NCBI RefSeq assembly: GCF_007981265.1 | Contig: NZ_CP034363.1 | Location: 1,054,001-1,118,000 of the forward strand | DNA from: Pantoea sp. CCBC3-3-1 | Lineage (GTDB): Bacteria > Pseudomonadota > Gammaproteobacteria > Enterobacterales > Enterobacteriaceae | Direction: 5' to 3' | DNA: 64,000 nt | Part shown: in pieces, positions 49,247 to 64,000 of the stretch | Layout: every line of letters begins with the position of its first letter | Position numbering within the stretch: position 1 is the first letter of the stretch | Notes under the pieces: model-generated | Database searches by the model: none | What the model was told of the DNA's origin: nothing | Seen by the model: the letters and a program-made list of their open reading frames with translations, nothing else | Program-made: the position numbers and the translations under genes

Positions 49247-50158
49247 TTAACGCTGAGCTTCGCCGCCCAGTGCTTCAATGGTGTTACCGATCAGCGCCGT
49301 CAGCTCGCTGGTCATCAGAATAAAGTCCGCATCAAATCGCGCCGCCACATCTTCACGATCGATATCGTCATTCTGTTCACGTAGCGTATCGGCAAACTTC
49401 AGGCGTTTCAGAGAGCCGTCATCCGACAGCACCAGCTGTACACGCTCCTGCCAGTCCAGCGCCAGTTTCGTCACCAGCTTGCCCGCTTCAATATGATTCG
49501 CAATTTCATCGCAAACCAGATCCTGCTTCTTACAGCGGATTACGCCGCCATCTTCCAGCAGCGCCTTCAGCTCCGCTTCATCCATCAGCGCAAAGCCTGC
49601 TGGCGTATCGCCAGAACGCACCCATTCGGTCAGGGTCAGCTCGATAGGGCTTTCCAGCGTCAGCGGCACCACCGGCAGCGATCCCAGGCTTTTACGCAGC
49701 AGCGCCAGCGTATCTTCCGCTTTTTTAGCGCTCGCGCAGTCAACCATGATCATGTTGTTGACGGTATCAATCCATAAAAAGGTCTGGCTGAAACGGCTAA
49801 AGGCGCGTGGCAGCAGGCTGTGCAGCACTTCATCCTTCAGTGAATCCTTTTCGGTCTTTTTCAGCTTGCGCTGTTGTTCCGCTTCCAGCTTGCTGATTTT
49901 GGCTTCCAGCGCCTGCTTAATCACCGGCGAAGGCAGGATTTTTTCTTCTTTGCGAGCGCAGATCAGAATTTGTCCGTTATTGACGTGAGTCAGCGCCTCG
50001 CCCCTGGAACCCATCGGAGAAACCCAACCGGTTTTTGCCATATCCTGGCTGCCGCAAGGAGTGAAAGAGAATGCCTCAAGTTGTTTTTCCATCTCGTCCA
50101 CCGCCAGCGGGATCTCGCGATTCAGACGATATACCATCAAATTTTTAAACCACAGCAT
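49247..50158 (-). CDS. rdgC: Recombination-associated protein RdgC
   Basis: A 303-residue protein, the usual RdgC length, beginning [17 protein letters not shown] and carrying [50 protein letters not shown] and the C-terminal [30 protein letters not shown]. It forms a ring dimer around DNA and restrains RecA. Order ppnP-rdgC-mak is as in E. coli. Confidence 0.96.
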
Positions 50159-50300
50159 TGTGCTTTCCCTCTCCGGCGCTTCGTGCGCGCTAATACAAAG
50201 TCAGCGCGCATGATAGCGAATCGGCGGCGGGGTTTCATTGTGTTTCCGCCAGACCCCTTCTAAGGTAAATGTCAGGCTTTTAAATAATGAGGAATAACAA

Positions 50301-51212
50301 GTGCGTATCGGCATAGATTTAGGCGGCACGAAAATTGAAGCGATCGCGCTGGATAAGCAGGGCGCCACGCTGTTCCGTCATCGTGTGGCAACCCCGAAAG
50401 GCGATTATCATCAGACAATGCGCGCGGTGACGGAGCTGGTTCGGCTGGTTGAAGAAAAAACGGGCCAGCAGGGTAGCGTCGGCATTGGCATTCCAGGTTC
50501 GCTTTCTCGCCTGACGCAGCGGGTCAAAAACGCCAATTCAGCCTGGCTGAACGGCCAGCCGCTGAGAGAGGATCTGCAAAAAATGTTAGGCCGTGAAGTG
50601 CGTGTCGCCAACGACGCTAATTGCCTGGCGGTTTCCGAAGCTCAGGACGGGGCAGCAGCCGGGTTCCAGACGGTGTTCGCCGTCATTATTGGCACCGGCT
50701 GTGGGGCTGGCGTGGCGCTAAACGGCCTGTCGCACAATGGCAGCAATGGGAATGCGGGCGAATGGGGACATAATCCGCTGCCGTGGATGGATGAGGACGA
50801 AGTGCGTTTCAGTCAGGAAGTGCCCTGCTACTGCGGCAAAGCGGGCTGCATCGAAACCTTTGTTTCCGGCACCGGTTTTGCTACCGATTACCATCGTTTG
50901 AGCGGCATTGAGCAGCAGGGACCGGCAATCGTCGGGCTGGTGGAGAAACAGGATCCGCTGGCAGAACTGGCGTTGAGTCGTTACGAAACCCGACTGGCAA
51001 AATCGCTGGCACACGTCGTAAATATTCTCGATCCGGAGGTGATTGTTCTCGGCGGCGGAATGAGTAACGTGGAGCGCCTTTACCAGACGCTGCCACAGCT
51101 GATTAAGCCCTGGGTGCTGGGTGGAGAGTTCGCCACGCCAATCCGAAAGGCGATGCATGGCGACTCCAGCGGGGTACGCGGTGCGGCCTGGCTGTGGCCG
51201 CACCAGCAATAG
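50301..51212 (+). CDS. mak: Fructokinase Mak (ROK family)
   Basis: A 303-residue ROK-family sugar kinase. [18 protein letters not shown] with the phosphate motif at the start, [13 protein letters not shown], the zinc-binding [20 protein letters not shown] (three Cys and a His upstream) and [14 protein letters not shown]. It phosphorylates fructose and related hexoses. It is convergent with the permease gene, with only 8 bases between them. Confidence 0.94.
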
Positions 51213-51220
51213 CCAAAACG

Positions 51221-52585
51221 CTATTCTCCCACCAGCATTGCATCACGCGGAGCGCTGTCGCGCTGGCTTTTGGTCATCAGAAAATAGAGATATCCTGCCA
51301 CCATAAATACCAGGAACAGGCCGCCGATGACCGGGTTAAACCACAGCATGGCAATCAGGCACACCAGCGCCAGCACCAGCGCGATGCCGGGCACAATCGG
51401 GTAGCCCGGCGCGCGAAACGAGCGATCCAGCTCCGGTGCGGTACGACGCAGGCGGAATAAACTCAGCATACTCATCAGATACATCACGATAGCGCCGAAA
51501 ACCGCCATAGTGATCATCGCGGCCGTCAGCGTCATGCCCTGCAAATTAATCCAGCCATCGCTGAAGATAGCCGCAATGCCAATGATGCCGCCGGCAATAA
51601 TTGCCCGATGCGGGGTTTGAAAACGGGAAAGTTTAGCCAGGCCAGCGGGCAGATAACCGGCGCGGGACAGCGCAAAGAACTGACGCGAATAGCCAAGGAT
51701 GATGCCGTGGAAGCTGGCGATCAGGCCGAACAGCCCAATCCATACCAGCATATGCATCCAGTTAGAGTGCTCGCCAACAATCATTTTCATCGCCTGCGGC
51801 AGCGGGTCGTTAATATCCGACAGCTTGCGCCAGTCGCCTGCGCCACCGGCCAACAGCATCACGCCGATTGCCAGCACCACCAGCGTCAGGATCCCGGCGA
51901 TATAGGCTTTTGGAATGGTGCGCTTCGGATCTTTCGCTTCTTCCGCCGCCATCGCAGCCCCTTCAATCGCCAGGAAGAACCAGATAGCAAACGGGATTGC
52001 GGCAAAAATCCCGGAGACGGCCGGCATACCAAAACGATCGCCGCCAGACCAGCCGTGCGCGACAAAGTTAGTCATGCTGAAGCCCGGTGCAACCACGCCC
52101 ATAAACACCAGCAGCTCCACAACCGCCAGGATTGTCACCACCAGTTCAAACATGGCGGCCAGCTTCACGCCTAAAATATTTAAGGTCATAAACACAAGGT
52201 AAGCGCCGACGGCAGCGTATTTGGGATTGAGGCCCGGATACTGCACGTTCAGGTAGGCACCGATGGCCATGGCGATCGCCGGTGGCGCAAAGACAAATTC
52301 AATCAGCGTTGCCATCCCGGCAATCAGCCCGCCCGTTTCGCCAAAGGCGCGGCGGCTGTAAGCAAACGGGCCGCCAGCGTGCGGGATCGCCGTGGTCAGT
52401 TCGGTGAAGCTAAAGATAAAACAGGTATACATCGTCGCGATCAGCGCGGTAGTGACGAGAAAGCCCAGGGTGCCGGCTACGCCCCAGCCGTAACTCCAGC
52501 CAAAGTACTCGCCGGAAATCACCAGACCTACCGCAATGCCCCACAGATGTATTGTGCCCAGCGTGGGCTTTAGCTTGCTTGTCAT
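51221..52585 (-). CDS. Ethanolamine-type amino acid/polyamine permease (Eat-like)
   Basis: A 454-residue APC-superfamily permease with about 12 hydrophobic segments. GIAVGLVISGEYFGWSYGW near the start and MYTCFIFSFTELTTAIPHAGGPFAYSRRAFG are close to the ethanolamine permease (Eat) branch, as is EGAAMAAEEAKDPKRTIPKAY. The start at 52585 has GGGGA upstream; the frame extends to a TTG at 52603. It probably imports ethanolamine or a related amino alcohol. The kinase-like gene is divergent 228 bases away. Confidence 0.8.
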   Translation of the reverse strand: MTSKLKPTLGTIHLWGIAVGLVISGEYFGWSYGWGVAGTLGFLVTTALIATMYTCFIFSFTELTTAIPHAGGPFAYSRRAFGETGGLIAGMATLIEFVFAPPAIAMAIGAYLNVQYPGLNPKYAAVGAYLVFMTLNILGVKLAAMFELVVTILAVVELLVFMGVVAPGFSMTNFVAHGWSGGDRFGMPAVSGIFAAIPFAIWFFLAIEGAAMAAEEAKDPKRTIPKAYIAGILTLVVLAIGVMLLAGGAGDWRKLSDINDPLPQAMKMIVGEHSNWMHMLVWIGLFGLIASFHGIILGYSRQFFALSRAGYLPAGLAKLSRFQTPHRAIIAGGIIGIAAIFSDGWINLQGMTLTAAMITMAVFGAIVMYLMSMLSLFRLRRTAPELDRSFRAPGYPIVPGIALVLALVCLIAMLWFNPVIGGLFLVFMVAGYLYFLMTKSQRDSAPRDAMLVGE

Positions 52586-52813
52586 ACTGATATCCCCGTT
52601 CAAATATTGTCAGTCGATAATGCAGCCGGTGTCGGGGTGAAACTTGACGCGGCGGTAATGATTTTTGTGCTCTGCTGTCAACTCAGAAGCAAAAAAAGTG
52701 CCGGATGTACGCTAAAGTCAAAAGAGGGTCGTCTGCGGTCAAGCGAGTCTGCGCGGGCGAAGCCATGCTGGTATCACCATGACGGCTAACGCCAATCCAT
52801 CAGGAGCCAGACT

Positions 52814-53818
52814 ATGACCGCCAGGCAATATGACGATTTAGACAACAGTGCGCTGATGCAGCTTGCCCGGCGCGCGCTGAGCCGCTATCCCTTTGCAGCA
52901 GAGGGCAAACTGAGCCTGCTTTGCCGCTCGGAAAACGCCACCTTTTTACTGGAAGCCGCAGGAAAACGTTTTGCGCTGCGCCTGCATCGCGGCAACTATC
53001 ATCAGCGTGCCGATATTGAAAGCGAACTGCACTGGCTGAATGCCCTGCGTGAGACCGGTATTGTCGTGCCTCAGGCAATTACTGATTGCGACGGGCAGGC
53101 GGTACAGAATCTTACGCTGGCGGATGGCAGCGTCCGGTACGCCGTATTGTTTGACTGGATTGAAGGTGATATGCCAACCACCGACGTCGATCCGCGGGCG
53201 TTTCAGCAGCTTGGCCACATTACCGCCCGGCTGCATCAGCACAGCAAAAGCTGGCAGAAACCCGCAGGATTTCAGCGCATTATCTGGGATCATCACTCCA
53301 TGGTCAGCCCGCAAAGCCACTGGGGCGACTGGCGGGATGCACCGGGCCTGTTAGCGCGAGATCATCACACGGTTGAAGACGTTATTGCACGCGTTGGGCA
53401 CGAGCTGGCGACGTTCGGCAAGGATCCTGCTCGCTACGGCTTGATCCATGCCGATCTGCGTCTGACAAATTTGCTGCTGCACAAGGGCGAAACCCGGGTG
53501 ATCGATTTTGACGATTGCGGCATGGGCTGGTATCTGCACGATCTTGCGGCAGCGATCAGTTTTGTGGAGCACCATCCTCGTGCAGCGGATTGGGTTGATA
53601 ACTGGATCAAAGGCTATGAGCAGGTCGCGCACATCAGTGACGAAGAGATGGCAATGGTGCCAACGCTACTGATCCAGCGCCGCATCCAGCTGCTGGCATG
53701 GGTAGGTTCCCATGCGCAAACCGAGATGGCGCAAAGTCTTGGGCCGCAGTGGGCGGATCATTCGGTTCGTCTGTGTCATCGCTACCTTGAAACCACTGAA
53801 CTGCCAGTGGGTGTCTGA
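52814..53818 (+). CDS. APH-fold phosphotransferase (amino alcohol or sugar kinase-like)
   Basis: A 334-residue aminoglycoside-phosphotransferase-fold kinase. It has the catalytic loop HADLRLTN (H212-D214-N219), DFDDCG (residues 231-236) with the Mg-binding aspartate, and an N-terminal nucleotide-binding region (VSLLCRSENATFLLEA, FALRLHRGNYHQ). The family includes homoserine, hydroxylysine and choline/ethanolamine kinases and SrkA. Next to an ethanolamine-type permease and an AraC regulator, an amino-alcohol kinase is a reasonable guess, not a proof. No phospho-lyase lies nearby. Confidence 0.75.
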   Translation: MTARQYDDLDNSALMQLARRALSRYPFAAEGKLSLLCRSENATFLLEAAGKRFALRLHRGNYHQRADIESELHWLNALRETGIVVPQAITDCDGQAVQNLTLADGSVRYAVLFDWIEGDMPTTDVDPRAFQQLGHITARLHQHSKSWQKPAGFQRIIWDHHSMVSPQSHWGDWRDAPGLLARDHHTVEDVIARVGHELATFGKDPARYGLIHADLRLTNLLLHKGETRVIDFDDCGMGWYLHDLAAAISFVEHHPRAADWVDNWIKGYEQVAHISDEEMAMVPTLLIQRRIQLLAWVGSHAQTEMAQSLGPQWADHSVRLCHRYLETTELPVGV

Positions 53819-53870
53819 ACTGGTACGGAAATTGCTGGGTTACAGGATATTCTCTGTAGCTGAGGCGATG

Positions 53871-54944
53871 ATGATGGAAACCGGACTACTCAAACAGCCC
53901 GATATGGCGGCAGCGCTGACAGCCAGCTTTGCCTGCAATCATGGTGTACTGGCCGCCGCCGCCAGCGGGCTGAGTGAATTTATCTGTGATAAAGGCGGCG
54001 ATATCGACCGCATTTATGGCGTCAGTGGCATCGATCCCGAGCAGCTAAGCAGTCCAACGCTAAGTTTGGGATTGATCAACTACTGTCGGGTCATGGAAGA
54101 AGCGGCACGTTTCTCGGGTTTTGATAACTTCGGTTTGCACTACGGCAGGCAGTTTAAACCGCAGTCATTAGGTCTGATCGGCTATATTGGCCTCTGTTCC
54201 GCCACGCTTGAGCAGGCACTGCATAACGTGGTTAACGCTTTTCCCTGGCATCAGCACGATACCCTGACACGGCTGACCGACAAAGGCGACTGCTGGCGGC
54301 TCGATTATCAGGTTCGACATGGTGCAATCCTCAGTCGGCGGCAGGATGCTGAACTGACGTTAGGGATGTTTTTGAACCTGATCCGCCACGTAGCGGGAAA
54401 GAACTGGGCACCGCGAGAGGTTCATTTTGAACATCCGCGACCGTCGCAGTGGCACGAGCACTGCAAAGTTTTTGACGCGCCGGTCTGGTTCGATCAGCCT
54501 TATAACTCTTTACTGATCCCCAAACGCGATCTGATGCGAACCATGCCGGACAGCGATCCTCTGCTGCTGATGGTGATGCAGGACGCGATTCGTCGTCTGA
54601 ACAGCGCGACGCCTCAGCAAAGTCTTGTCGATCAGGCGCGTGCTCAGGTGCATCTGATGCTGATGAAAGGCGAACCGGTGCTGGAAGATGTCGCGGAAAA
54701 AATGGGCATGTCCAGCTGGTCGCTACAGCGTCGTCTGCGTGATGAAAACCTGAGTTTCAGCGCGCTGGTGGATAAAGTGCGCTGCGAGATGGCCACGCAC
54801 TATTTACAGCAAAAGCAGCTACCGATATCGGAAATGGCGCTGCTGCTGGGCTACTCCGAGGTCAGTGCTTTTTCCCGGGCTTTCCGCCGCTGGTTCGGCA
54901 TCAGCCCAAGGCAGTGGCGACAGGATGAGGCTAGAGCGGTTTAA
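53871..54944 (+). CDS. AraC family regulator
   Basis: A 357-residue protein (three neighbouring ATGs at 53868, 53871 and 53874 are possible; GAGG favours the latter two). The N-terminal 240 residues match the OruR/ArgR-type AraC_binding_2-like domain (GLIGYIGLCSATLEQAL, DAELTLGMFLNLI); the C-terminal HTH has LEDVAEKMGMSSWSLQRRLRDE and LPISEMALLLGYSEVSAFSRAFRRWFGISPRQWR. It probably controls the permease and kinase next to it. Its 3' end overlaps the convergent lipoprotein gene by 14 bases. Confidence 0.85.
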   Translation: MMETGLLKQPDMAAALTASFACNHGVLAAAASGLSEFICDKGGDIDRIYGVSGIDPEQLSSPTLSLGLINYCRVMEEAARFSGFDNFGLHYGRQFKPQSLGLIGYIGLCSATLEQALHNVVNAFPWHQHDTLTRLTDKGDCWRLDYQVRHGAILSRRQDAELTLGMFLNLIRHVAGKNWAPREVHFEHPRPSQWHEHCKVFDAPVWFDQPYNSLLIPKRDLMRTMPDSDPLLLMVMQDAIRRLNSATPQQSLVDQARAQVHLMLMKGEPVLEDVAEKMGMSSWSLQRRLRDENLSFSALVDKVRCEMATHYLQQKQLPISEMALLLGYSEVSAFSRAFRRWFGISPRQWRQDEARAV

Positions 54945-55356
54945 AATCTATCACCGTACGACGCGGCAGATTTTTCGGCGGGGCAGGAAGCCAGGTGGCG
55001 CTGCTGATAACGCCCCAGACTTTCAGACAGAGCCGTTCGTCGCCGGCAGTGCTCTGCACGTTGTAGCGACCTTGCTGACCGTAACTGATGGTCGCCGCAC
55101 ATTCACGCCCCTTATATTTGTTGGCGTCATAAAAGTTTCTGATAACGCCGTACTGCATTTTCGCCAGATAACGACAGGTTTCCTGCTGGTCTGATTTGGC
55201 GCTGGCACACTGTTTATCTGCCACCTGCTGCAATTCCTGCTGCGTGGGCGGCGCGGTGCCGGTTCGGGGCGGCGAGCTGCTCTGGCAGCCCGCCAGCAGA
55301 AGCGTGAGCAGTATCGTGCCGCCTGCCAGGCTGGTCTTTATCGCATCGGCTATCAT
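54931..55356 (-). CDS. Lipoprotein with TolA C-terminal-like domain
   Basis: A 141-residue precursor with lipobox LAGC (C24). The mature part has a helix (QQELQQVADKQCASAKSDQQETCRYLAKMQYGVIRNFYDANKYKGRECAATISYG) and DERLCLKVWGVI, resembling the C-terminal TolA/TonB-like domain where a Y-x-x-x-I helix precedes GKTC and a later C. Four cysteines suggest disulfides. It may be an envelope lipoprotein that binds Tol- or TonB-type partners, inferred only. It is convergent with the AraC gene. Confidence 0.6.
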   Translation of the reverse strand: MIADAIKTSLAGGTILLTLLLAGCQSSSPPRTGTAPPTQQELQQVADKQCASAKSDQQETCRYLAKMQYGVIRNFYDANKYKGRECAATISYGQQGRYNVQSTAGDERLCLKVWGVISSATWLPAPPKNLPRRTVIDFKPL

Positions 55357-55599
55357 TTTTACCCCTGAAAACTAAAGAATTTCTTAATGCTGCCGATAGT
55401 CTACCTCGTTAGCTTTCCGCTGACAGGTTATTCCGGCATAAACAGGTGATTTACAGATTTTTCGCCTGCAGCGTTGAAACAGGGAAAGTCATTAATTCGC
55501 AGTGGCACGTTATATACTCCAGGACTTTTCTGTTTTCTTATTGTATTCTCCAGCGCGGAATGCCGGATGCTCTAACTTTATTCATGGAAAAGAAAACGA

Positions 55600-56277
55600 A
55601 TGAAACCTTATTTTAATCTTGTTGCTTTGGCGTTAATTAACTGTGCTGTTCTCAGCGGTTGTGCCAGCGAATCTTCCCGGACTATCGAAGCACCTCAGGT
55701 GACCGCAGCCAGCCAGCCTGCCTATCAGGGAATAAAAAGTCCGATTGCCGTCGGTAAATTTGATAATCGTTCGGCTTATATGAACGGTATTTTCTCTGAC
55801 GGTGTGGATCGTCTTGGTAATCAGTCTAAAACCATTCTTATTACCCATCTCCAGCAAACCGGCCGTTTTAACGTGCTGGATCGCGCCAACCTGGATGAGC
55901 TGAAGGCCGAAGCAGGCTATAAGCACAGCACGCAGTCAATCAAAGGCGGCGATTATGTTGTAACCGGCGACATCACCGAATTTGGCCGTAAAGAAGTTGG
56001 CGACCAGCAGCTGTGGGGCATTCTCGGCAGCGGAAAAACCCAGGTCGCCTACGCGAAAGTCAATCTGAACGTGGTGGATGTGGCGACGTCAGAAGTGGTT
56101 TATAGCGTGCAGGGCGCAGGGGAATATCAGTTATCTAACCGTGAAGTTATCGGCTTTGGCGGCACGGCCAGCTATGACTCTACGCTGAATGGCAAGGTGA
56201 TGGATCTGGCCATTCGCGAAGCGGTGAATCATCTGGTCAGCGCAATTGATTCAGGCGCCTGGCGTCCGGTTAAATAA
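55600..56277 (+). CDS. CsgG/HfaB-family lipoprotein
   Basis: A 225-residue precursor with lipobox LSGC (C21). It has the CsgG domain wording PIAVGKFDNRSAY, FSDGVDRLGNQSKTILITHLQQTGRFNVLDRANLDELKAEAGY, GGDYVVTGDITEFGR and VAYAKVNLNVVDVATSEVVYSVQG. CsgG proteins form outer-membrane channels for curli; this is a shorter stand-alone relative. It is the first of three lipoprotein genes in one operon, 11 bases before the next. Confidence 0.88.
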   Translation: MKPYFNLVALALINCAVLSGCASESSRTIEAPQVTAASQPAYQGIKSPIAVGKFDNRSAYMNGIFSDGVDRLGNQSKTILITHLQQTGRFNVLDRANLDELKAEAGYKHSTQSIKGGDYVVTGDITEFGRKEVGDQQLWGILGSGKTQVAYAKVNLNVVDVATSEVVYSVQGAGEYQLSNREVIGFGGTASYDSTLNGKVMDLAIREAVNHLVSAIDSGAWRPVK

Positions 56278-56288
56278 CGGGGAATATT

Positions 56289-56642
56289 ATGAAGATTATT
56301 AAATTTAGCGTTGTGGCCGCCACAATGCTGATGTTAACTGCCTGCGCGCAAAAAACGACCAGCATCTATTACTGGGGCGACTATCAGTCTTCTTTATACA
56401 GTTATTATAAAGAGGGAACGGCGCCGGAAAAAAATATCGACACGCTGAATAAAGTTATTCAGGAAGCTCAGGCAAAAAATAAGCCTGTCGCGCCGGGGCT
56501 GCATGCGCAGCTGGGATTACTTTATGCTAACACCGGAAGAACTGACCTGGCCTTTCAGCAGTTCAGCGCCGAAAAAATGGCCTTCCCTGAATCTTCTTCC
56601 TATATGGATTTCCTGATGCGTAATAAGCAGGGAGCACAATAA
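56289..56642 (+). CDS. DUF4810 lipoprotein
   Basis: A 117-residue precursor with lipobox MLTAC (C19). The mature part, QKTTSIYYWGDYQSSLYSYYKEGTAPEKNID then PVAPGLHAQLGLLYANTGRTDLAFQQFSAEK, fits DUF4810, with a TPR-like helix pair near the end. It overlaps its downstream neighbour by one base (56642), so translation is coupled. It joins the CsgG-type and DUF799 proteins in a three-gene set of envelope lipoproteins. Confidence 0.85.
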   Translation: MKIIKFSVVAATMLMLTACAQKTTSIYYWGDYQSSLYSYYKEGTAPEKNIDTLNKVIQEAQAKNKPVAPGLHAQLGLLYANTGRTDLAFQQFSAEKMAFPESSSYMDFLMRNKQGAQ

Positions 56643-57286
56643 TGAAACTCTTTTTGGCCTTTTTTGCTTTCTTTTCGGTGATGGCACTGACCGGCTGCGC
56701 GAAAAAAGCGCCCTATGACTACACCGCCTTTCGTGAGAGCAAGCCGGCTTCTATTCTGGTACTGCCTGCACAAAATGAAACCACGGATATCAATGCCGCC
56801 CACAGCTTTGTGTCGATGGTGACGCAGCCGCTGGCCGAATCGGGTTACTACGTGTTTCCGGTCGCGGTGGTGGAAGAAACCTTCAGGCAGAACGGCCTGA
56901 CCAATGCCACGGATATTCGTAGCGTCAGTACGGCTAAGCTTCGCAGCATTTTCAACGCCGATGCGGCGCTCTATATCGACGTCACCCATTACGGGACCAA
57001 ATACGTGCTTGTTGATAGCGTGACCACCGTGACGGCTACCGCGAAGCTGGTCGATCTGCGTAGCGGCAAGCAGATCTGGAGCGGAATGGCGTCGGCGTCC
57101 GACAACGAAAACAGCAGCACCAACAGCGGCCTGGGCATCCTCGTGGCGGCTGTGGTGAAGCAAATCAGCAATAAAGTGACCGATGAGGCGCACACTATTG
57201 CTGGTGTGGCAAGCACGCGGTTGCTAACGGCTAACACCAACGGCGGGATCCTGGCCGGGCCTCGTGCGAAGGCAGTAAAACCTTGA
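56642..57286 (+). CDS. DUF799 (GNA1162-type) lipoprotein
   Basis: A 214-residue precursor with lipobox LTGC (C19). DYTAFRESKPASILVLPAQNETTDINAAHSFVSMVTQPLAESGYYVFPVAVVEETFRQNGL and VSTAKLRSIFNADAALYIDVTHYGTKYVLVDSVTTVTATAKLVDLRSGKQIWSG match the GNA1162/DUF799 family. The Neisseria member is a surface lipoprotein. A terminator follows. The set CsgG-DUF4810-DUF799 recurs in many proteobacteria and may build an outer-membrane assembly of unknown role. Confidence 0.88.
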   Translation: MKLFLAFFAFFSVMALTGCAKKAPYDYTAFRESKPASILVLPAQNETTDINAAHSFVSMVTQPLAESGYYVFPVAVVEETFRQNGLTNATDIRSVSTAKLRSIFNADAALYIDVTHYGTKYVLVDSVTTVTATAKLVDLRSGKQIWSGMASASDNENSSTNSGLGILVAAVVKQISNKVTDEAHTIAGVASTRLLTANTNGGILAGPRAKAVKP

Positions 57287-57289
57287 TGG

Positions 57290-57313
57290 ACAGGGCGCCA
57301 GACGGCGCCCTGT
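57290..57313 (+). terminator. Terminator after the lipoprotein operon
   Basis: A 10-base stem (ACAGGGCGCC with GGCGCCCTGT) just after the DUF799 stop. The following TTAACAT is a weak U-run. Confidence 0.65.
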
Positions 57314-57398
57314 TAACATAGCGCTGGCATGTGTCCCGCGCGCTTTGAGTTTGTCTGCTATCTGCGCCCCATTTTATTCACTTTTCCCGCGGCGCCAG

Positions 57399-60300
57399 TC
57401 AGGCCGTGGGCGTTTCCAGCTTGCTGTAACCCAGCCCGTTTATTTTGCGTACCTTAATTTGCACCGGAATGCGTTCTTTCATTGCCTCAACGTGGCTGAT
57501 GACGCCGATGGTTTTGCCGCTGGCATTTAACGCATCCAGCGCGTCGAGTGCGCTGTCCAGCGTCTCCGCATCCAGCGTGCCGAAGCCTTCGTCCAGAAAC
57601 AGCGATTCAATTCGCGTTTTATGACTGACCAAATCGGAAAGCGCCAGCGCCAGCGCCAGGCTGACCAGAAAACTCTCACCGCCGGAAAGGGTACGGGTAT
57701 CGCGCTGCGCATCGGCCTGCCAGGTATCCACCACCTGAAGCTCCAGCGCCTCCTGTGATTTACGCTGCAACAGATAGCGGCCGTGCAGGCGATCCAGCTG
57801 GTTGTTGGCCAGCCAGACCAGGTGATCCAACGTTAAGCCCTGGGCAAATTTACGGAACTTATCGCCTTCTTTTGAACCAATCAACTGGTTGAGGTAGTTC
57901 CAGTCCTCGACGTCACGCGCTTTTTGCTCAATGCTGACCAGCAGCGCTTGCTGTTGTTCGCGTCGGGCTGCATCGCTGGATATCTGCTGACGAACCTCGC
58001 CCTGCTGGCTGGCGTTGTCCCGCAGCTGCCGTGGAAGGCTTTCGGCCGTGGCGCTCAGCGTTTCTCTCTCTACCGGTAAATCTGCCGGCTGTGATGAAAG
58101 CAATGCAGCAAGATTTTTTTCTGCCTGTTCAACCAGCACGGCCGCCTGCTGACGACGCCTTTCATGCTGTTGCTGAAGCGCTTTCAGCCTGGCGGTATGT
58201 TCTTCATCCAGCAGCGCTGCGGCAAACGCGTTTTCATCGCTGAAATGCGTAACCGTTAACGCCTCGCTAAACGCCTGCTGCGCCGCTTTCAGCCGACGCT
58301 CCAGCGCTTCTTCCTGCTCAGTGAGAGAATTATGCTGTCCGGTCAGAGTATTTAACTGGCTTTGCTGCTGCTGCCACTGCTGTTGCAGGTGCTGGCAGCG
58401 TTCAGTGTGAGCCTGAGACAGCTCGCGAAGCTGCTGCTGAACCTGCGCAGTGCGCTGCTCGCCAAAGAGCTGCTGACGCTCCTGACGGCAGGCGGTTAGC
58501 GTTTGTAGTTCATGACGGAGACGCGCTTCACGACTGTTTTGACCGGTCTGCTCACGGGCAATTTCCTCTTGCAATGCCTGCTGCTGCGTTGCCAGAGTTG
58601 TCAGCTGCGAGGCGAGGTCAGTTAGTACCCGCTCCGCTTGTGCCCATTGCTCTGACTCTTTTTTCCTGTCAGTGAGCCAGGTTTCATGCTCATCTGGCGC
58701 AGGCAGCGTCAGTGCATGTTCCTGCAACGAGTCCCGTAAGGTTTCGCGCTGTTTCTCCACGCTTTGCTGCTCCTGAAGCAGCAGCTGTTCCTGCTCGGCC
58801 AGCGCCTGGTTCAGCGTCTGTAACTGTTGCGCTGCCAGCAACTGTTGCTGCTGGAGCGCCGCGCTCTCGTTCTGCTGACGCTGCAACAGATCTTTAAGCT
58901 GCTGCAACTGGCGGGCATGCTGTTGCAGATTGACCAGCTGAGCCTGAAGCTCGCTTTCCTGCTGCTCCTGTGCGGCAAGCCAGCCGGTGGTTTTCTCCGG
59001 CTCTTCCGGCGTCAATAAAATTGTCAGGGCTTCAGTCGTGGCCTGCCATTGCGCACGCAGCTGGGCACACTCTCGCTCGCTATCCGTGCGTTCCTGTAGC
59101 AGCTTTTCTGCCTGGAGTTGCAGGTTTTTTACCTGCTCGCGACGGGTGGTGCCCTCATCTTTTAGCTTTTCCACTTCAGCTTTCAACAGCATCAGGCGCT
59201 GCTGATTTTCTGAAGGTTTAAGCGCCTGATATTCGTGAATGGCAGGATGCTGGCAGGAGCCACAAAGCGGGCAGGGGGAGTCGGGTTCCAGCAGGGCGCG
59301 GTGCTGTTCCAAATCGGCAATACGCTGCTCCAGCTCACAGCGTTTTTCCAGATCCTGATAGTGCTGATTTTTCTCTTTCCAGCTGCTGCGCAGGCTGTGC
59401 AATTGCTGTTCAGCCTGTTGCAGCGCCTGGTGTACTCCTTGCTGGCTGGTTAGCTGGCGCTCACTAAGTAACGTTATTTGTTGCCACTGAGCGGCGAGCA
59501 GCGTTAATTTTTGGCGCAGCGGCCGCTGTTCGTTCAGCCGGGTTAGCGCCGCCTGGAGCTGTTCTTCCGGGTGCTGCTGCTGGAGCAGGGTCAGGCTTTT
59601 TTCGGCCTCGCTAAAACGCTGCTGCGCCTCTTCCAGCTGCTGTTGCTGTGGTTTGGCCTGCTGTTTTAGCCCCGCAATTTGCGCCTGCAACTGCGAAATG
59701 CTTTTTTTCTGCCCGGCGATGCGCTGTTGGTGCGCATTCAGCGCCAGCTCGCTCTGGTGCTGCTGCTCGAAACGCGCCCGCCAGAAAGGCAGTAATTCAG
59801 CCCAGCGCGAGAAGCGGCCATTCGCCTCGGCCCACAGCTGTTGCCGCTGCTGTTGCTTTACTGTTTCGCTCTGAGCCTGCTGGTTTTTCATTAATGCAGC
59901 CTGACGCTCATTAATATGAAGTTGGTACTCGCTAACCTCTTTAGCCAGCTGCTCATGCTGTGCGGCCAGTGAGGCAATGCGGTTATCCAGCGGTAATACG
60001 CTGTCGCTGATTAACGTTTCCTGCTGCTGGCGATACGCCTCATGGTGTTGGCGTGTTGCTTCCGCTTCTTTTAGCTGCCGCGCCACGCCTTCCAACTGCT
60101 GGCTGGCCTGTTGCTGCTGGAGGGTTAAACGATCAAGCTGCGCTTTTAGCGCCTCAGCATCCTGCTGATACTGGTTGCGCAGCTGCCAGCCTGGGCGCAG
60201 TTTTTCTGCCGGTTCGGCCAGCGTCAGACGCTGAAGCTGCGGTTGATCCTGTTGCCAGGCTGCTTCCGCCTGCTGCTGCTCTGCCATCGCCGTCTGACGA

Positions 60301-61073
60301 GTCTGGCAAGCTGCCAGATGCTGCTGATGCCACTGCAACAAACGCTGTTGCCGCTGATGTTGCGAAGTAAGCGCCTGCTCCGCTTCTGTTAACTTTTCCA
60401 GCTGGGTTTTAAGCAGCTGTAATTGCTCTGCATCCAGCAGCGACATCCCGCTTGCCTGCGCGCGCAGCTGGTCCAGCTCAACTCTGCTATTTTTAAACCG
60501 TTCGAAGACGTTGGCCGACAGGCGGCCGTAGATTTCCGTGCCGGTCAGCTCCTCCAGCAGCTCGGCGCGGCTGTTGGCGTCTGCGTTAAGAAAAGCGGCA
60601 AACTGCCCCTGAGAGAGCATCATCGATTTAGTGAAGCGCTCAAAATCCAGTCCGGTCAGCGCCGTCAGCATCTCCAGCTTGTCTTTCACTTTGTCAGCAA
60701 CGATTTTATTGTCATCGCAGCGTGCCAGCTCGACTCGCGGTGCCTGTAAATTACCCTCAACCGCGCCACGCGCCCGGTTCTGGCTCCAGAAAGCGCGCCA
60801 GGCAACGCCTTTTACCTCAAACTCCACCTCGGCCAGACATTCCGACGTGTCACGCGTCATCAGGTCATTTTGTGACTGTGACAGTTTTCCCAGACGAGAC
60901 GTTTCGTGGTAAAGCGCGAGACAGATCGCATCCAGCAGCGTGGTTTTCCCCGCGCCGGTTGGGCCGGTGATGGCAAACAGGCCGTTACTGGCGAAAGGCT
61001 CGGCGGTAAAATCAATTTTCCATTCGCCCTTCAGCGAGTTGAGGTTTTTAAACCGCAGCGTCAGGATTTTCAT
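57399..61073 (-). CDS. sbcC: Exonuclease subunit SbcC
   Basis: A 1224-residue SMC-like ATPase. Walker [17 protein letters not shown] (residues 35-50), a very long Gln-rich coiled coil broken by the zinc-hook CPLCGSC, then the signature [18 protein letters not shown] and Walker [17 protein letters not shown]. It clamps DNA and, with SbcD, cuts hairpins and protein-blocked ends. The start overlaps the sbcD stop by 4 bases. Gln content in the coiled coil is very high and should not be mistaken for a repeat region. Confidence 0.97.
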
Positions 61074-62290
61074 GGCTGTTCCTCATCATTCAACTCCGCC
61101 AGCGTCTGTCGGAACAGCAGCGTGGCGCGGGCAATCCGCTGCGGTTCTTCTTCTTCCAGCGCCAGGCGACGGCTGAATACCTCTTCCACGCTGAGTTCGC
61201 TCAGCGTCTCGTTGTTCTGACGGGCGATGACCTGATCACGCTGTTCACGACTGCGGCGCAGCAGCACGACCTCTACCGGCAATTCCTGCGTCAGCTCTTC
61301 AATTCGTCGCTGCAAATCGTGCAGCCAGCCTTGCGTGACAATCTCAATATCCAGCCAGACGGTTTTACCATCATCACGAGGCGGTATTGCTGCCAGCTGC
61401 CGCTCGATCTCCTCCAGCGAACCTTTAATCATTTGCATCGGCTGGAAAGTGGGAACGATCAGCGGTTCAACCTGATTCAGTTTGCCGTCAAGGAAGTCGA
61501 CCAGAAATACGCTTTTCTCTTTGCCCAACTCATCAAAGCTGAGCGGAATGGGGGAGCCGCTGTAGCGAATATGCTCGGTTCCGGCGATGCGCTGCGCGCG
61601 GTGAATATGGCCAAGCGCGATGTAGTCCGCTGCGGGAAACGCCTGCGCCGGAAAGGCATCCAGCGTACCGATATAGATATCGCGCACCGCATCGCTTTTG
61701 GTGACGCCAACGGTGGTCAGATGACCGGTTGCGATGATTGGCAGCGTTAAATCCAGCTGCTCGCGCCGCGCCACGGCTTCGTGCCAGCAGCGCTGATAGT
61801 GATGAGTAATCGCTTCGGCCAGCGTTTGCTGTTTTTCACGTCCTGACTGGCCTGCCTGGCTACGGGTGATATCGCGAGGACGCAAAAAAGGGATGGCGCA
61901 AAGCAGGGCGCCGGGCTGGCCGTCGCGGCGATTTAGCAGCAAAACCTGTTCATTAAGGTTGTCGCTGGCGGACGCAATAACCCGGGTGTTCAGGCAGGCC
62001 AACAGCTCGCGGGATTCGTTAAGCGTGGCCACCGAGTCGTGATTACCGGCCAGCATCACCAGCTGGCAGCCGGTTTGACTGAGCCTGACGATAAAACGGT
62101 TATACAGCTCGCGCGCATAGCTTGGAGGCGAACCCGTATCAAAAATATCGCCGGCCACGATAATGGCATCGACCTGATGCTGTTCTGCCTGCGCCAGCAG
62201 CCAGTCCAGAAAAGCCTGATGTTCGGCTGCGCGGCTTTTGGTATAGAAGAACTGGCCCAGATGCCAGTCGGCGGTATGAATGATTCGCAT
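61070..62290 (-). CDS. sbcD: Exonuclease subunit SbcD
   Basis: A 406-residue Mre11-type nuclease. [31 protein letters not shown] and the later ATGHL and GHIH motifs carry the metal-binding His, Asp and Asn residues. The start at 62290 follows AGGGA; the frame extends to 62317. It forms the nuclease with SbcC, which follows with an ATGA overlap. It is divergent from phoB. Confidence 0.97.
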
Positions 62291-62421
62291 GAGTTCCCTG
62301 TGAATGCGCCAGGACAAGACGGCGATTATAAACAGTCAGGGGCAAAACCCCAGCGCAAAGGCATTTCACTGTTGATAAAGTGTTATAAAACGGGGCGGAA
62401 GCCGATGCTTTTTTCATAAAA

Positions 62422-62439
62422 ATGTCATAAAACTGACGC
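62422..62439 (+). promoter_or_regulatory. Pho box upstream of phoB
   Basis: TGTCATAAAACTGACGCA-type 18-base site (two TGTCAT-like 7-mers spaced by AAAC) matches the PhoB box consensus CTGTCAT-A-A-A-N-CTGTCAT with minor changes. It lies 52 bases before the phoB start, where E. coli phoB has its box. Confidence 0.8.
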
Positions 62440-62490
62440 ATAATGTCGCCGCATATCCAGTGACATTCCGTCACAAACGCAGGAGCAATA

Positions 62491-63180
62491 ATGGCTAAGC
62501 GCATTCTGGTGGTCGAAGATGAAGCCCCAATCCGTGAGATGTTATGTTTTGTTCTGGAGCAAAATGACTACCAGCCGATCGAAGCGGAAGATTATGACAG
62601 CGCCGTTAATTTGCTGATCGAACCCTGGCCCGATTTGATCCTGCTGGACTGGATGTTGCCGGGCGGATCCGGCATCCAGTTTATCAAACATCTTAAACGT
62701 GAAGCGATGACCCGCGATATCCCGGTGATGATGCTAACGGCACGCGGCGAGGAAGAGGATCGCGTTCGCGGTCTGGAAGTGGGGGCCGACGACTATATTA
62801 CCAAGCCTTTCTCCCCTAAAGAGCTGGTGGCCCGGATCAAAGCCGTGATGCGCCGGATTTCACCGATGGCGGTGGAAGAGGTCATTGAAATCCAGGGGCT
62901 GAGCCTCGATCCCTCTTCACACCGCGTCATGTCTGAAACGCAGCCGTTGGAAATGGGGCCGACAGAATACAAACTGCTGCATTTCTTTATGACTCATCCC
63001 GAACGGGTTTACAGCCGTGAGCAGTTGCTTAATCATGTCTGGGGCACTAACGTTTACGTCGAGGATCGCACCGTCGACGTACATATTCGCCGCTTGCGCA
63101 AAGCCCTTGAGCTGACCGGGCACGATCGCATGGTGCAGACGGTTCGCGGAACAGGTTATCGTTTTTCTGCACGTTTCTGA
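62491..63180 (+). CDS. phoB: Phosphate regulon response regulator PhoB
   Basis: A 229-residue OmpR-family regulator. Receiver with D53 (LLDWMLPG), conserved T and K (LTARG, TKPFSP), and a C-terminal winged helix with [49 protein letters not shown]. It binds Pho boxes, including the one upstream of itself. AGGAGC precedes the ATG. Confidence 0.98.
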
Positions 63181-63200
63181 TCGTAACCGGAGCCTTTACC

Positions 63201-64000
63201 GTGCTGGAACGCCTCTCCTGGAAGAGATTACTGCTGGAGCTGGCGTTGGCCAGCCTTCCTGCTCTTATCATTGGCCTGTTGGTGGGCTACTTACCCTGGC
63301 TGCTGCTGATTTCAGTGCTGGCGGTGCTGTGCTGGCACTTCGCTAATCTACTGCGGCTTTCCCACTGGCTGTGGGTGGATCGTAGCATGACGCCACCGTC
63401 CGGTCGCGGCAGCTGGGAACCGCTGTTTTATGGCCTTTATCAGATGCAGGCGCGTAACCGTCGTCGCCGCCGTGAGTTGGGGCATCTGATTAAGCGTTTT
63501 CGCAGCGGTGCTGAGTCGCTGCCGGATGCGGTGGTGCTCACTACCGAAGAAGGCACGATTTTCTGGTGTAACGGCCTGGCTCAACAGCTTCTGGGCCTGC
63601 GCTGGCCAGAAGATAACGGCCAGAATATCCTCAATTTATTACGTTATCCTGAATTTACTCGTTATCTGCGCGAGCAGGATTTCACCCGTTCGTTAACGCT
63701 GGTGCTGAATAATCATCGTCATCTGGAGTTCCGGGTAATGCCCTACAGCGAAGGTCAGTGGCTGATGGTCGCGCGCGATGTGACGCAAATGCATCAGCTG
63801 GAAGGCGCGCGACGAAACTTCTTTGCTAACGTCAGCCACGAACTGCGTACGCCGTTGACCGTACTGCAAGGCTATCTGGAAATGATGAGCGACTCGGTGC
63901 TGGAAGGAAGCCAGCGGGATAAAGCCCTACATACGATGCAGCAGCAAACCCGGCGAATGGATGGTCTGGTGCAGCAGCTGTTAACGCTCTCCAGGATTGA
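63201..64000 (+). CDS. phoR: Phosphate sensor kinase PhoR (partial)
   Basis: The first 266 codons of PhoR, cut by the window edge. GTG start with GGAG nine bases upstream; [25 protein letters not shown] begins the protein as in E. coli. Two membrane segments, the RRRELG linker, a PAS domain and the start of the kinase core with the H-box [11 protein letters not shown] are visible. It senses phosphate through the Pst-PhoU system and phosphorylates PhoB. It follows phoB by 20 bases. Confidence 0.97.

Follow-up and report, generated by a model that had tools for sequence, protein, structure and literature searches.

One of the questions raised by the genome of Pantoea sp. CCBC3-3-1 is what three adjacent lipoprotein genes between mak and sbcC encode, and whether they work as a unit. 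Here we looked at a window of 64,000 nucleotides (positions 1,054,001 to 1,118,000 of contig NZ_CP034363.1, assembly GCF_007981265.1), in which the forward strand carries genes for a CsgG-like lipoprotein (55600..56277, 225 amino acids), a DUF4810 lipoprotein with a predicted TPR-like helical fold (56289..56642, 117 amino acids) and a GNA1162-like DUF799 lipoprotein (56642..57286, 214 amino acids). The trio holds up as a genuine envelope module that is inherited strictly together; it represents a variant of a known family, CsgG-like but with partners of its own. By reading of the open reading frames, the first two genes are separated by 11 bases and the last two overlap by one base, while a gene for a TolA-C-like lipoprotein (54931..55356, reverse strand, 141 amino acids) starts divergently 243 bases from the CsgG-like gene, all as an earlier note on this DNA had described. 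The four proteins start with a signal peptide and a lipobox (LSGC, LTAC and LTGC in the trio); residue +2 after the lipobox cysteine is Ala in each trio protein and Gln in the TolA-C-like protein, and outer-membrane sorting is therefore predicted for all four.

Whether the three genes belong together can be asked from their distribution. Among 199 genomes sampled from the phylum, DUF4810 was found in 18 (the source genome included), and CsgG and DUF799 stood beside it in 18/18, on one strand and in the order CsgG-DUF4810-DUF799 (the G076 block is interrupted by a contig end). DUF799 was found in 27 of the 199; of the nine genomes outside the 18, eight have weaker matches inside long frames, and in G085 the match lies where a contig begins. 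In 17 of 329 genomes of the class DUF4810 was over its cut-off, and the same 17 had DUF799 at more than 100 bits (in G439 the two lie on two contig ends). CsgG beside this pair was confirmed in the 17, in G511 as a fragment only. Outside this count stand three further genomes with DUF4810 below the cut-off and nine further DUF799 genomes, two of which, G458 and G427, are over the cut-off with 53 and 46 bits. The trio is not a chance arrangement: it recurs as a same-strand block wherever DUF4810 is over the cut-off in the sampled genomes, and independent occurrence of the three genes, which the earlier note had named as the observation that would speak against a joint unit, was not seen (18/18 and 17/17).

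A wider view was obtained from 69 trio loci (the window, L002-L023 and L154-L199), a non-random set picked for DUF799 or DUF4810 that includes at least one duplicate, L005 and L173 looking like the same contig. Here CsgG was found in 69/69 (as a fragment in L195), DUF4810 in 69/69 and DUF799 in 68/69, the one missing case being a locus truncated by the end of its contig. These counts were taken from hidden Markov model (HMM) calls, because in the clustering of flanking genes some high-GC loci had antisense reading frames in place of trio genes. Asp at +2 was present in none of the recognised lipoboxes (63/69 for CsgG, 64/69 for DUF4810 and 63/68 for DUF799). For 55 loci the distances in the three gene trees correlate at 0.84, 0.88 and 0.95, values without a species-tree control, and the supported splits in conflict between the trees number 3, 0 and 1. 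The presence of the trio is patchy, since DUF799 was found in 19/119 genomes of the GTDB family and is missing in G306 of the same genus. Flanking gene clusters are common to groups of relatives (Xenorhabdus, and a group around L005, L154, L170-L174 and L176) but change from one group to the next, and no gene family recurring beside the trio across groups was found among the flanks, which were clustered and not annotated.

What kind of protein leads this block? Within the trio, conservation is highest in the CsgG-like protein (for example 70/52/56% identity to L003 for the three proteins). PF03783 (CsgG) is matched with 98.0 bits (cut-off 20.8), the CsgG superfamily domain spans the whole protein and hhalign against CsgG gives 97.6% over 211 columns. 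The CsgG-type identity given in the earlier note is borne out by profile and by fold, and holds over the full length. The protein keeps a TM1-type insertion, a TM2-type segment and a C-terminal helix, all of which, as read from the sequences, are missing in the genome's own LpoB of 189 amino acids. The best Foldseek match of the model is the non-lipidated pre-pore form of CsgG, followed by PelC, DUF330, the LPHT ring, FlgT, LptE, PqiC and TolB; the entry titles give a PelC dodecamer and the LPHT ring, and others among these form rings as well. With segment limits that we take to be those of CsgG, the TM1 and TM2 segments are kept but shorter (17 vs 20 and 24 vs 28 residues; two canonical rows, CAN_L085 and CAN_L086, were excluded as wrong-frame reading frames), and the TM2-type segment in the predicted structure is not a hairpin. 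One option suggested by these features is a channel-less ring or scaffold of periplasmic lipoproteins, in which the pre-pore fold of CsgG would be kept and the ring would lie under the outer membrane without ever becoming a barrel. The pre-pore match and the TM2 model are in its favor, as are the shortened hairpins, TM1 more so in an extended form of the module treated below, where the segments have 14 and 24 residues. PelC, FlgT, PqiC and LptE, which are not known to be barrels themselves, have the same fold, and this too counts for a ring without a channel; we regard this option as possible but rather doubtful.

In the CsgG-like protein, the stretch that begins with the lipidated cysteine hardly varies, both in the window (55660-55677, CASESS) and at other trio loci; among the 25 motifs listed, at least 42 of the 63 recognised members start with CATESS or CASESS, which is unusual for a lipoprotein linker. 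The constriction of CsgG is formed by Tyr66, Asn70 and Phe71 (PMC7304575). Conservation of these residues was dropped as a line of evidence, being alignment-dependent, with two alignments that disagree on the loop.

The second protein matches PF16068 (DUF4810) with 111.6 bits (cut-off 34.7). Its profile matches the TPR chain 8zht_B with an E-value of 6.6e-4, and its AF2 model (pLDDT 84.7) is helical. The top Foldseek entry is a designed TPR protein, 1na3_A, with a probability of 1.00 but an E-value of 0.079; TPR proteins make up most of the 50 entries shown, with probabilities up to 1.00 and this same best E-value, and no match at E <= 0.001 was obtained. The third protein matches PF05643 (DUF799) with 272.9 bits (cut-off 25.9) and the solved structure of GNA1162 (4hrv) with E 1.3e-55 over residues 26-184, or E 5.5e-70 with a profile. 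Long frames of about 590-800 amino acids with a GNA1162-like stretch were observed at L043-L050, L052 and L053, and the only one scanned, that of L043, has a sub-threshold beta-helix match (24.2 vs 25.9). The idea of DUF799 fusions was rejected, with no systematic fusion search, as the long frames in some genomes were read as upstream frame extensions.

These partners bear on a second option, a CsgG-family channel that secretes an unlinked substrate, in which the DUF799 protein would be a gate and the DUF4810 protein a pilotin. TPR lipoproteins act as pilotins, and PilF appears at rank 44 of the DUF4810 Foldseek list, with a Tgl profile match far below the cut-off. The full-length CsgG homology also points this way, together with the surface exposure of GNA1162 (PMC6497663) and an enzyme-linked immunosorbent assay (ELISA) in which recombinant NMB1126 bound protein of brain endothelial cells (PMC6168680). 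Against it stand the shortened hairpins, the missing recurrence of any gene family beside the trio in the flank clustering and the finding that neither curlin (PF07012) nor CsgF (PF10614) was matched in the source genome, which is 100% complete, while the E. coli control was positive. The NCBIfam CsgG equivalog NF011731 gives 19.8 bits for the trio protein, far under its cut-off of 505, and a canonical CsgG is present as well in only one of the 18 trio genomes (G180, E 9.5e-77). We hold such a channel to be conceivable and no better than tentative. Drawn more fully, the trio would be a CsgG-family channel for secretion or surface display, independent of curli, with an accessory set of its own (a GNA1162 layer and a TPR pilotin, to which the extended form would add a fourth lipoprotein bound to the extra C-terminal domain of CsgG) and a substrate encoded elsewhere, present in Erwiniaceae, Xenorhabdus, Neisseria, Acinetobacter and, by published annotation, Pasteurellaceae; to this picture we assign a minor share of the likelihood.

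Another possible function is activation of a peptidoglycan synthase in the manner of LpoB. PF13036 comes close for the CsgG-like protein (22.0 bits vs 22.3) and gives 17.2 bits for DUF799, for which TIGR02722 gives 22.6 bits vs a cut-off of 110.55. However, the source genome has its own, separate LpoB elsewhere (120.1 bits), and the CsgG profile of the trio compared with the profile of this LpoB gives 2.7%. An LpoB-like role is improbable.

The extended form of the module is found in nine of the 69 loci (L164-L168, L193 and L197-L199), where a small gene lies between CsgG and DUF4810 and encodes a protein with a signal peptide and a lipobox-like start. In the same 9/9 loci CsgG carries 88-97 extra residues at its C-terminal. 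The other 60 loci have a CsgG tail of 0-2 residues (23 in L195, a fragment), and the search with a profile of the fourth gene found it in 0/60; the gap between csgG and the DUF4810 gene, at most 113 bases, also leaves no room for it. The same four-gene order with a 93-residue CsgG tail occurs on the Polaromonas naphthalenivorans plasmid pPNAP04 (L204), where the fourth gene, of 110 residues, is annotated as hypothetical and was not picked up by the search with our fourth-gene profile, built from five of the nine loci. On pPNAP04 the module stands upstream of VWA, TerD and PP2C genes. A PEGA scan of seven of the nine fourth proteins (L167 and L197 were not included) found one over the cut-off (L198, 22.7 vs 20.8), one below it (L165, 15.8) and five with no match; little supports the name PEGA-like. 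The CsgG tail gave sub-threshold FlgT_C matches only. The joint occurrence predicts a specific protein–protein contact, and the tail and the fourth lipoprotein probably work together. In the literature searched we did not find this form described.

Does the divergent TolA-C-like lipoprotein make a fourth member of the cluster, as the earlier note supposed? The protein matches PF06519 with 34.9 bits (cut-off 25), and the full-length TolA equivalog TIGR02794 gives 31 bits, under its cut-off of 59.45. For membership one can count the common upstream region of 243 bases and the fact that Pantoea sp. IMH (L002), like the window, has both the trio and the TolA-C-like gene. Its five best relatives in the 119 family genomes, all short frames, are in G000 (the source genome), G274, G306, G214 and G038; DUF799 is present only in G000 among these. 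In the four others (loci L150-L153) the TolA-C-like gene lies within ~200 bases of sbcC, and the surrounding 19.5 kb showed no match to CsgG or DUF799. Weaker short TolA-C frames were seen in further genomes, one of which, G218, has the trio on another contig. Among 22 loci compared, only L002 has a TolA-C relative. The four trio-less relatives, which keep the gene beside sbcC, contradict its membership: a four-member cluster is very improbable. The TolA-C-like gene belongs to the sbcC locus, and in the window the trio separates the two.

A more probable arrangement, to which we give an even chance, is that the products of the three genes make up a single lipoprotein assembly of the outer membrane with a general envelope task. 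The CsgG-like protein would oligomerise at the outer membrane into a CsgG-type ring, with its shortened hairpins reaching into the bilayer or resting against it. The GNA1162-type protein may add an accessory layer beneath or beside this ring, by analogy with the PelC ring for PelB, and the TPR-like DUF4810 protein could act as adaptor or pilotin in the assembly or docking of the ring. Where the module is extended, the fourth small (PEGA-like) lipoprotein would join and pair with the extra C-terminal domain of CsgG. The task would be export or gating, or maintenance, and not one dedicated fibre; a general envelope task seems most likely because across the groups compared the module has no other gene family as a recurrent neighbour. 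What the data show directly are the genes with their lipoboxes, the joint inheritance, the CsgG homology along the entire protein, the TPR-like and GNA1162 likenesses of the two partners and the pairing of the fourth gene with the CsgG tail; the physical complex, the ring, the order of the layers and the task are inferred.

How the trio came to its place can be considered from the surroundings. Upstream lie rdgC (49253-50158) and mak (50301-51206), and downstream sbcC (57402-61073) and sbcD. Between mak and sbcC one also finds an ethanolamine permease (51224-52603), a gene without an NCBIfam match at 1e-20 (52814-53815) and a QhpR-type AraC regulator (53712-54941; NCBIfam 338.3 vs cut-off 250), which together (51224-54941) are perhaps an amine-use cluster. 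The earlier note had the trio replacing the DNA found between mak and sbcC in E. coli; the trio does lie in that interval but, since the permease, the unplaced gene and the regulator are there too, fills only part of it. Among the loci whose surroundings were compared, the trio lies at sbcC in just two, the window and the locus of Pantoea sp. IMH. Its nearest homologues (among the best 120, 120 and 73 listed) carry Erwinia, Pantoea and Winslowiella names. The GC content of the trio is 0.46-0.54 vs 0.53-0.60 in the surroundings, which is compatible with transfer and no proof of it; no direct repeats of at least 14 bases flank the trio within 54850-57700, and no transfer RNA genes were found in 50000-64000.

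A candidate promoter of the trio, read from the letters and weak, lies at 55521..55549 on the forward strand (AGGACT, a 17-base spacer and TATTCT); a scan with the sigma-70 consensus found no site there. It resembles an element, TGGACTTTT...TATTAT, that is strongly conserved upstream of csgG in 13/15 Xenorhabdus loci (L003, L004, L006-L008, L010, L011, L013, L014 and L016-L019), and in the comparison of upstream regions the window was the only match outside Xenorhabdus, with the similar stretch GGACTTTT at 55522-55529. A common regulator site was rejected: ten patterns (sigma-E twice, CpxR, sigma-54, FliA, Fnr, RcsB, CRP, sigma-70 and Fur) were each found in 0 to 2 of 47 upstream regions (8 of the 55 loci were left out for lack of a start call), with Fnr at 1 locus vs 0.1 expected and sigma-70 at 2 vs 0.6. 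Directly 3' of the DUF799 stop, a perfect 10-bp inverted repeat with a 4-base loop (57290..57313) is a possible end of the operon; it has no T run and is absent from the output of the terminator scan.

Carriage by phages was also considered and rejected. PHROGs profiles match all three proteins, but the phage records found are two Acinetobacter phage MD-2021a contigs. The one of these that was examined, CAKLQF020000021.1 (L203), is read as mislabelled bacterial DNA because its trio sits among catabolic chromosomal genes, and PHROGs 17898, 17414 and 18664 may come from such records. Two IMG/VR contigs, viral as labelled, hold trio genes: L201 has DUF4810 and DUF799, and L202 all three.

In the literature, GNA1162 is described as a meningococcal outer-membrane vesicle antigen that is surface-exposed by fluorescence-activated cell sorting and has a TolB-/LptE-like structure, with few functional details (PMC6497663). 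NMB1126/NMB1164, near GNA1162 by locus number, is named a CsgG family protein (PMC6338130), and the recombinant NMB1126 gave the strongest ELISA signal of five proteins on brain endothelial cell protein, less evident in cell staining (PMC6168680). A DUF799 protein differs between two Acinetobacter vesicle preparations (PMC10016710), a CsgG protein, of unconfirmed trio membership, was detectable only after 15 days in saline at 37 degrees (PMC12727854), and CsgG-like pores are widespread in a database of predicted nanopores (PMC13397529). In the literature searched, which leaves most subscription papers outside its coverage, DUF4810 was not found mentioned and none of the matches listed deals with the function of the trio. 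Naming the partners of GNA1162 makes the function of this vesicle antigen (PMC6497663) directly testable.

How, then, does the trio compare with known systems? In Actinobacillus pleuropneumoniae, APL_0220-APL_0221-APL_0222 is alike by published description only and was read there as curli-related. Its CsgG-superfamily gene is reported to share an operon with two genes that lack homology to csg genes and to be up-regulated in vivo (PMC2829017); APL_0222 is called NMB1162-like and APL_0220 NMB1164-like, with counterparts up in biofilm in two Pasteurellaceae (PMC4245831). The csgG gene (APL_0220) was constitutively highly expressed, with APL_0221 listed as well (PMC3328466), and elsewhere no significant change of csgG expression was seen (PMC4446954). 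CsgG-family genes outside csg operons were earlier read as curli genes (PMC2829017, PMC3328466), whereas the trio is a separate, strictly co-inherited lineage of the CsgG family with its own partners. From PelC, the ring lipoprotein of the PelB exporter, the CsgG-like protein differs in sequence family, PelC being also the shorter protein, and from FlgT and the flagellar H-T and LPHT rings in an FlgT_C score below the cut-off. The DUF799 protein matches the solved structure of Neisseria meningitidis GNA1162 (PF05643, 4hrv), which is that of a lone protein. The closest likeness is to CsgG itself (4uv2, 4uv3), with which the trio protein shares the fold and sequence over the full length, the lipoprotein nature, the aligned TM1 and TM2 segments and the C-terminal helix, and from which it differs in its shorter hairpins and its other partners.

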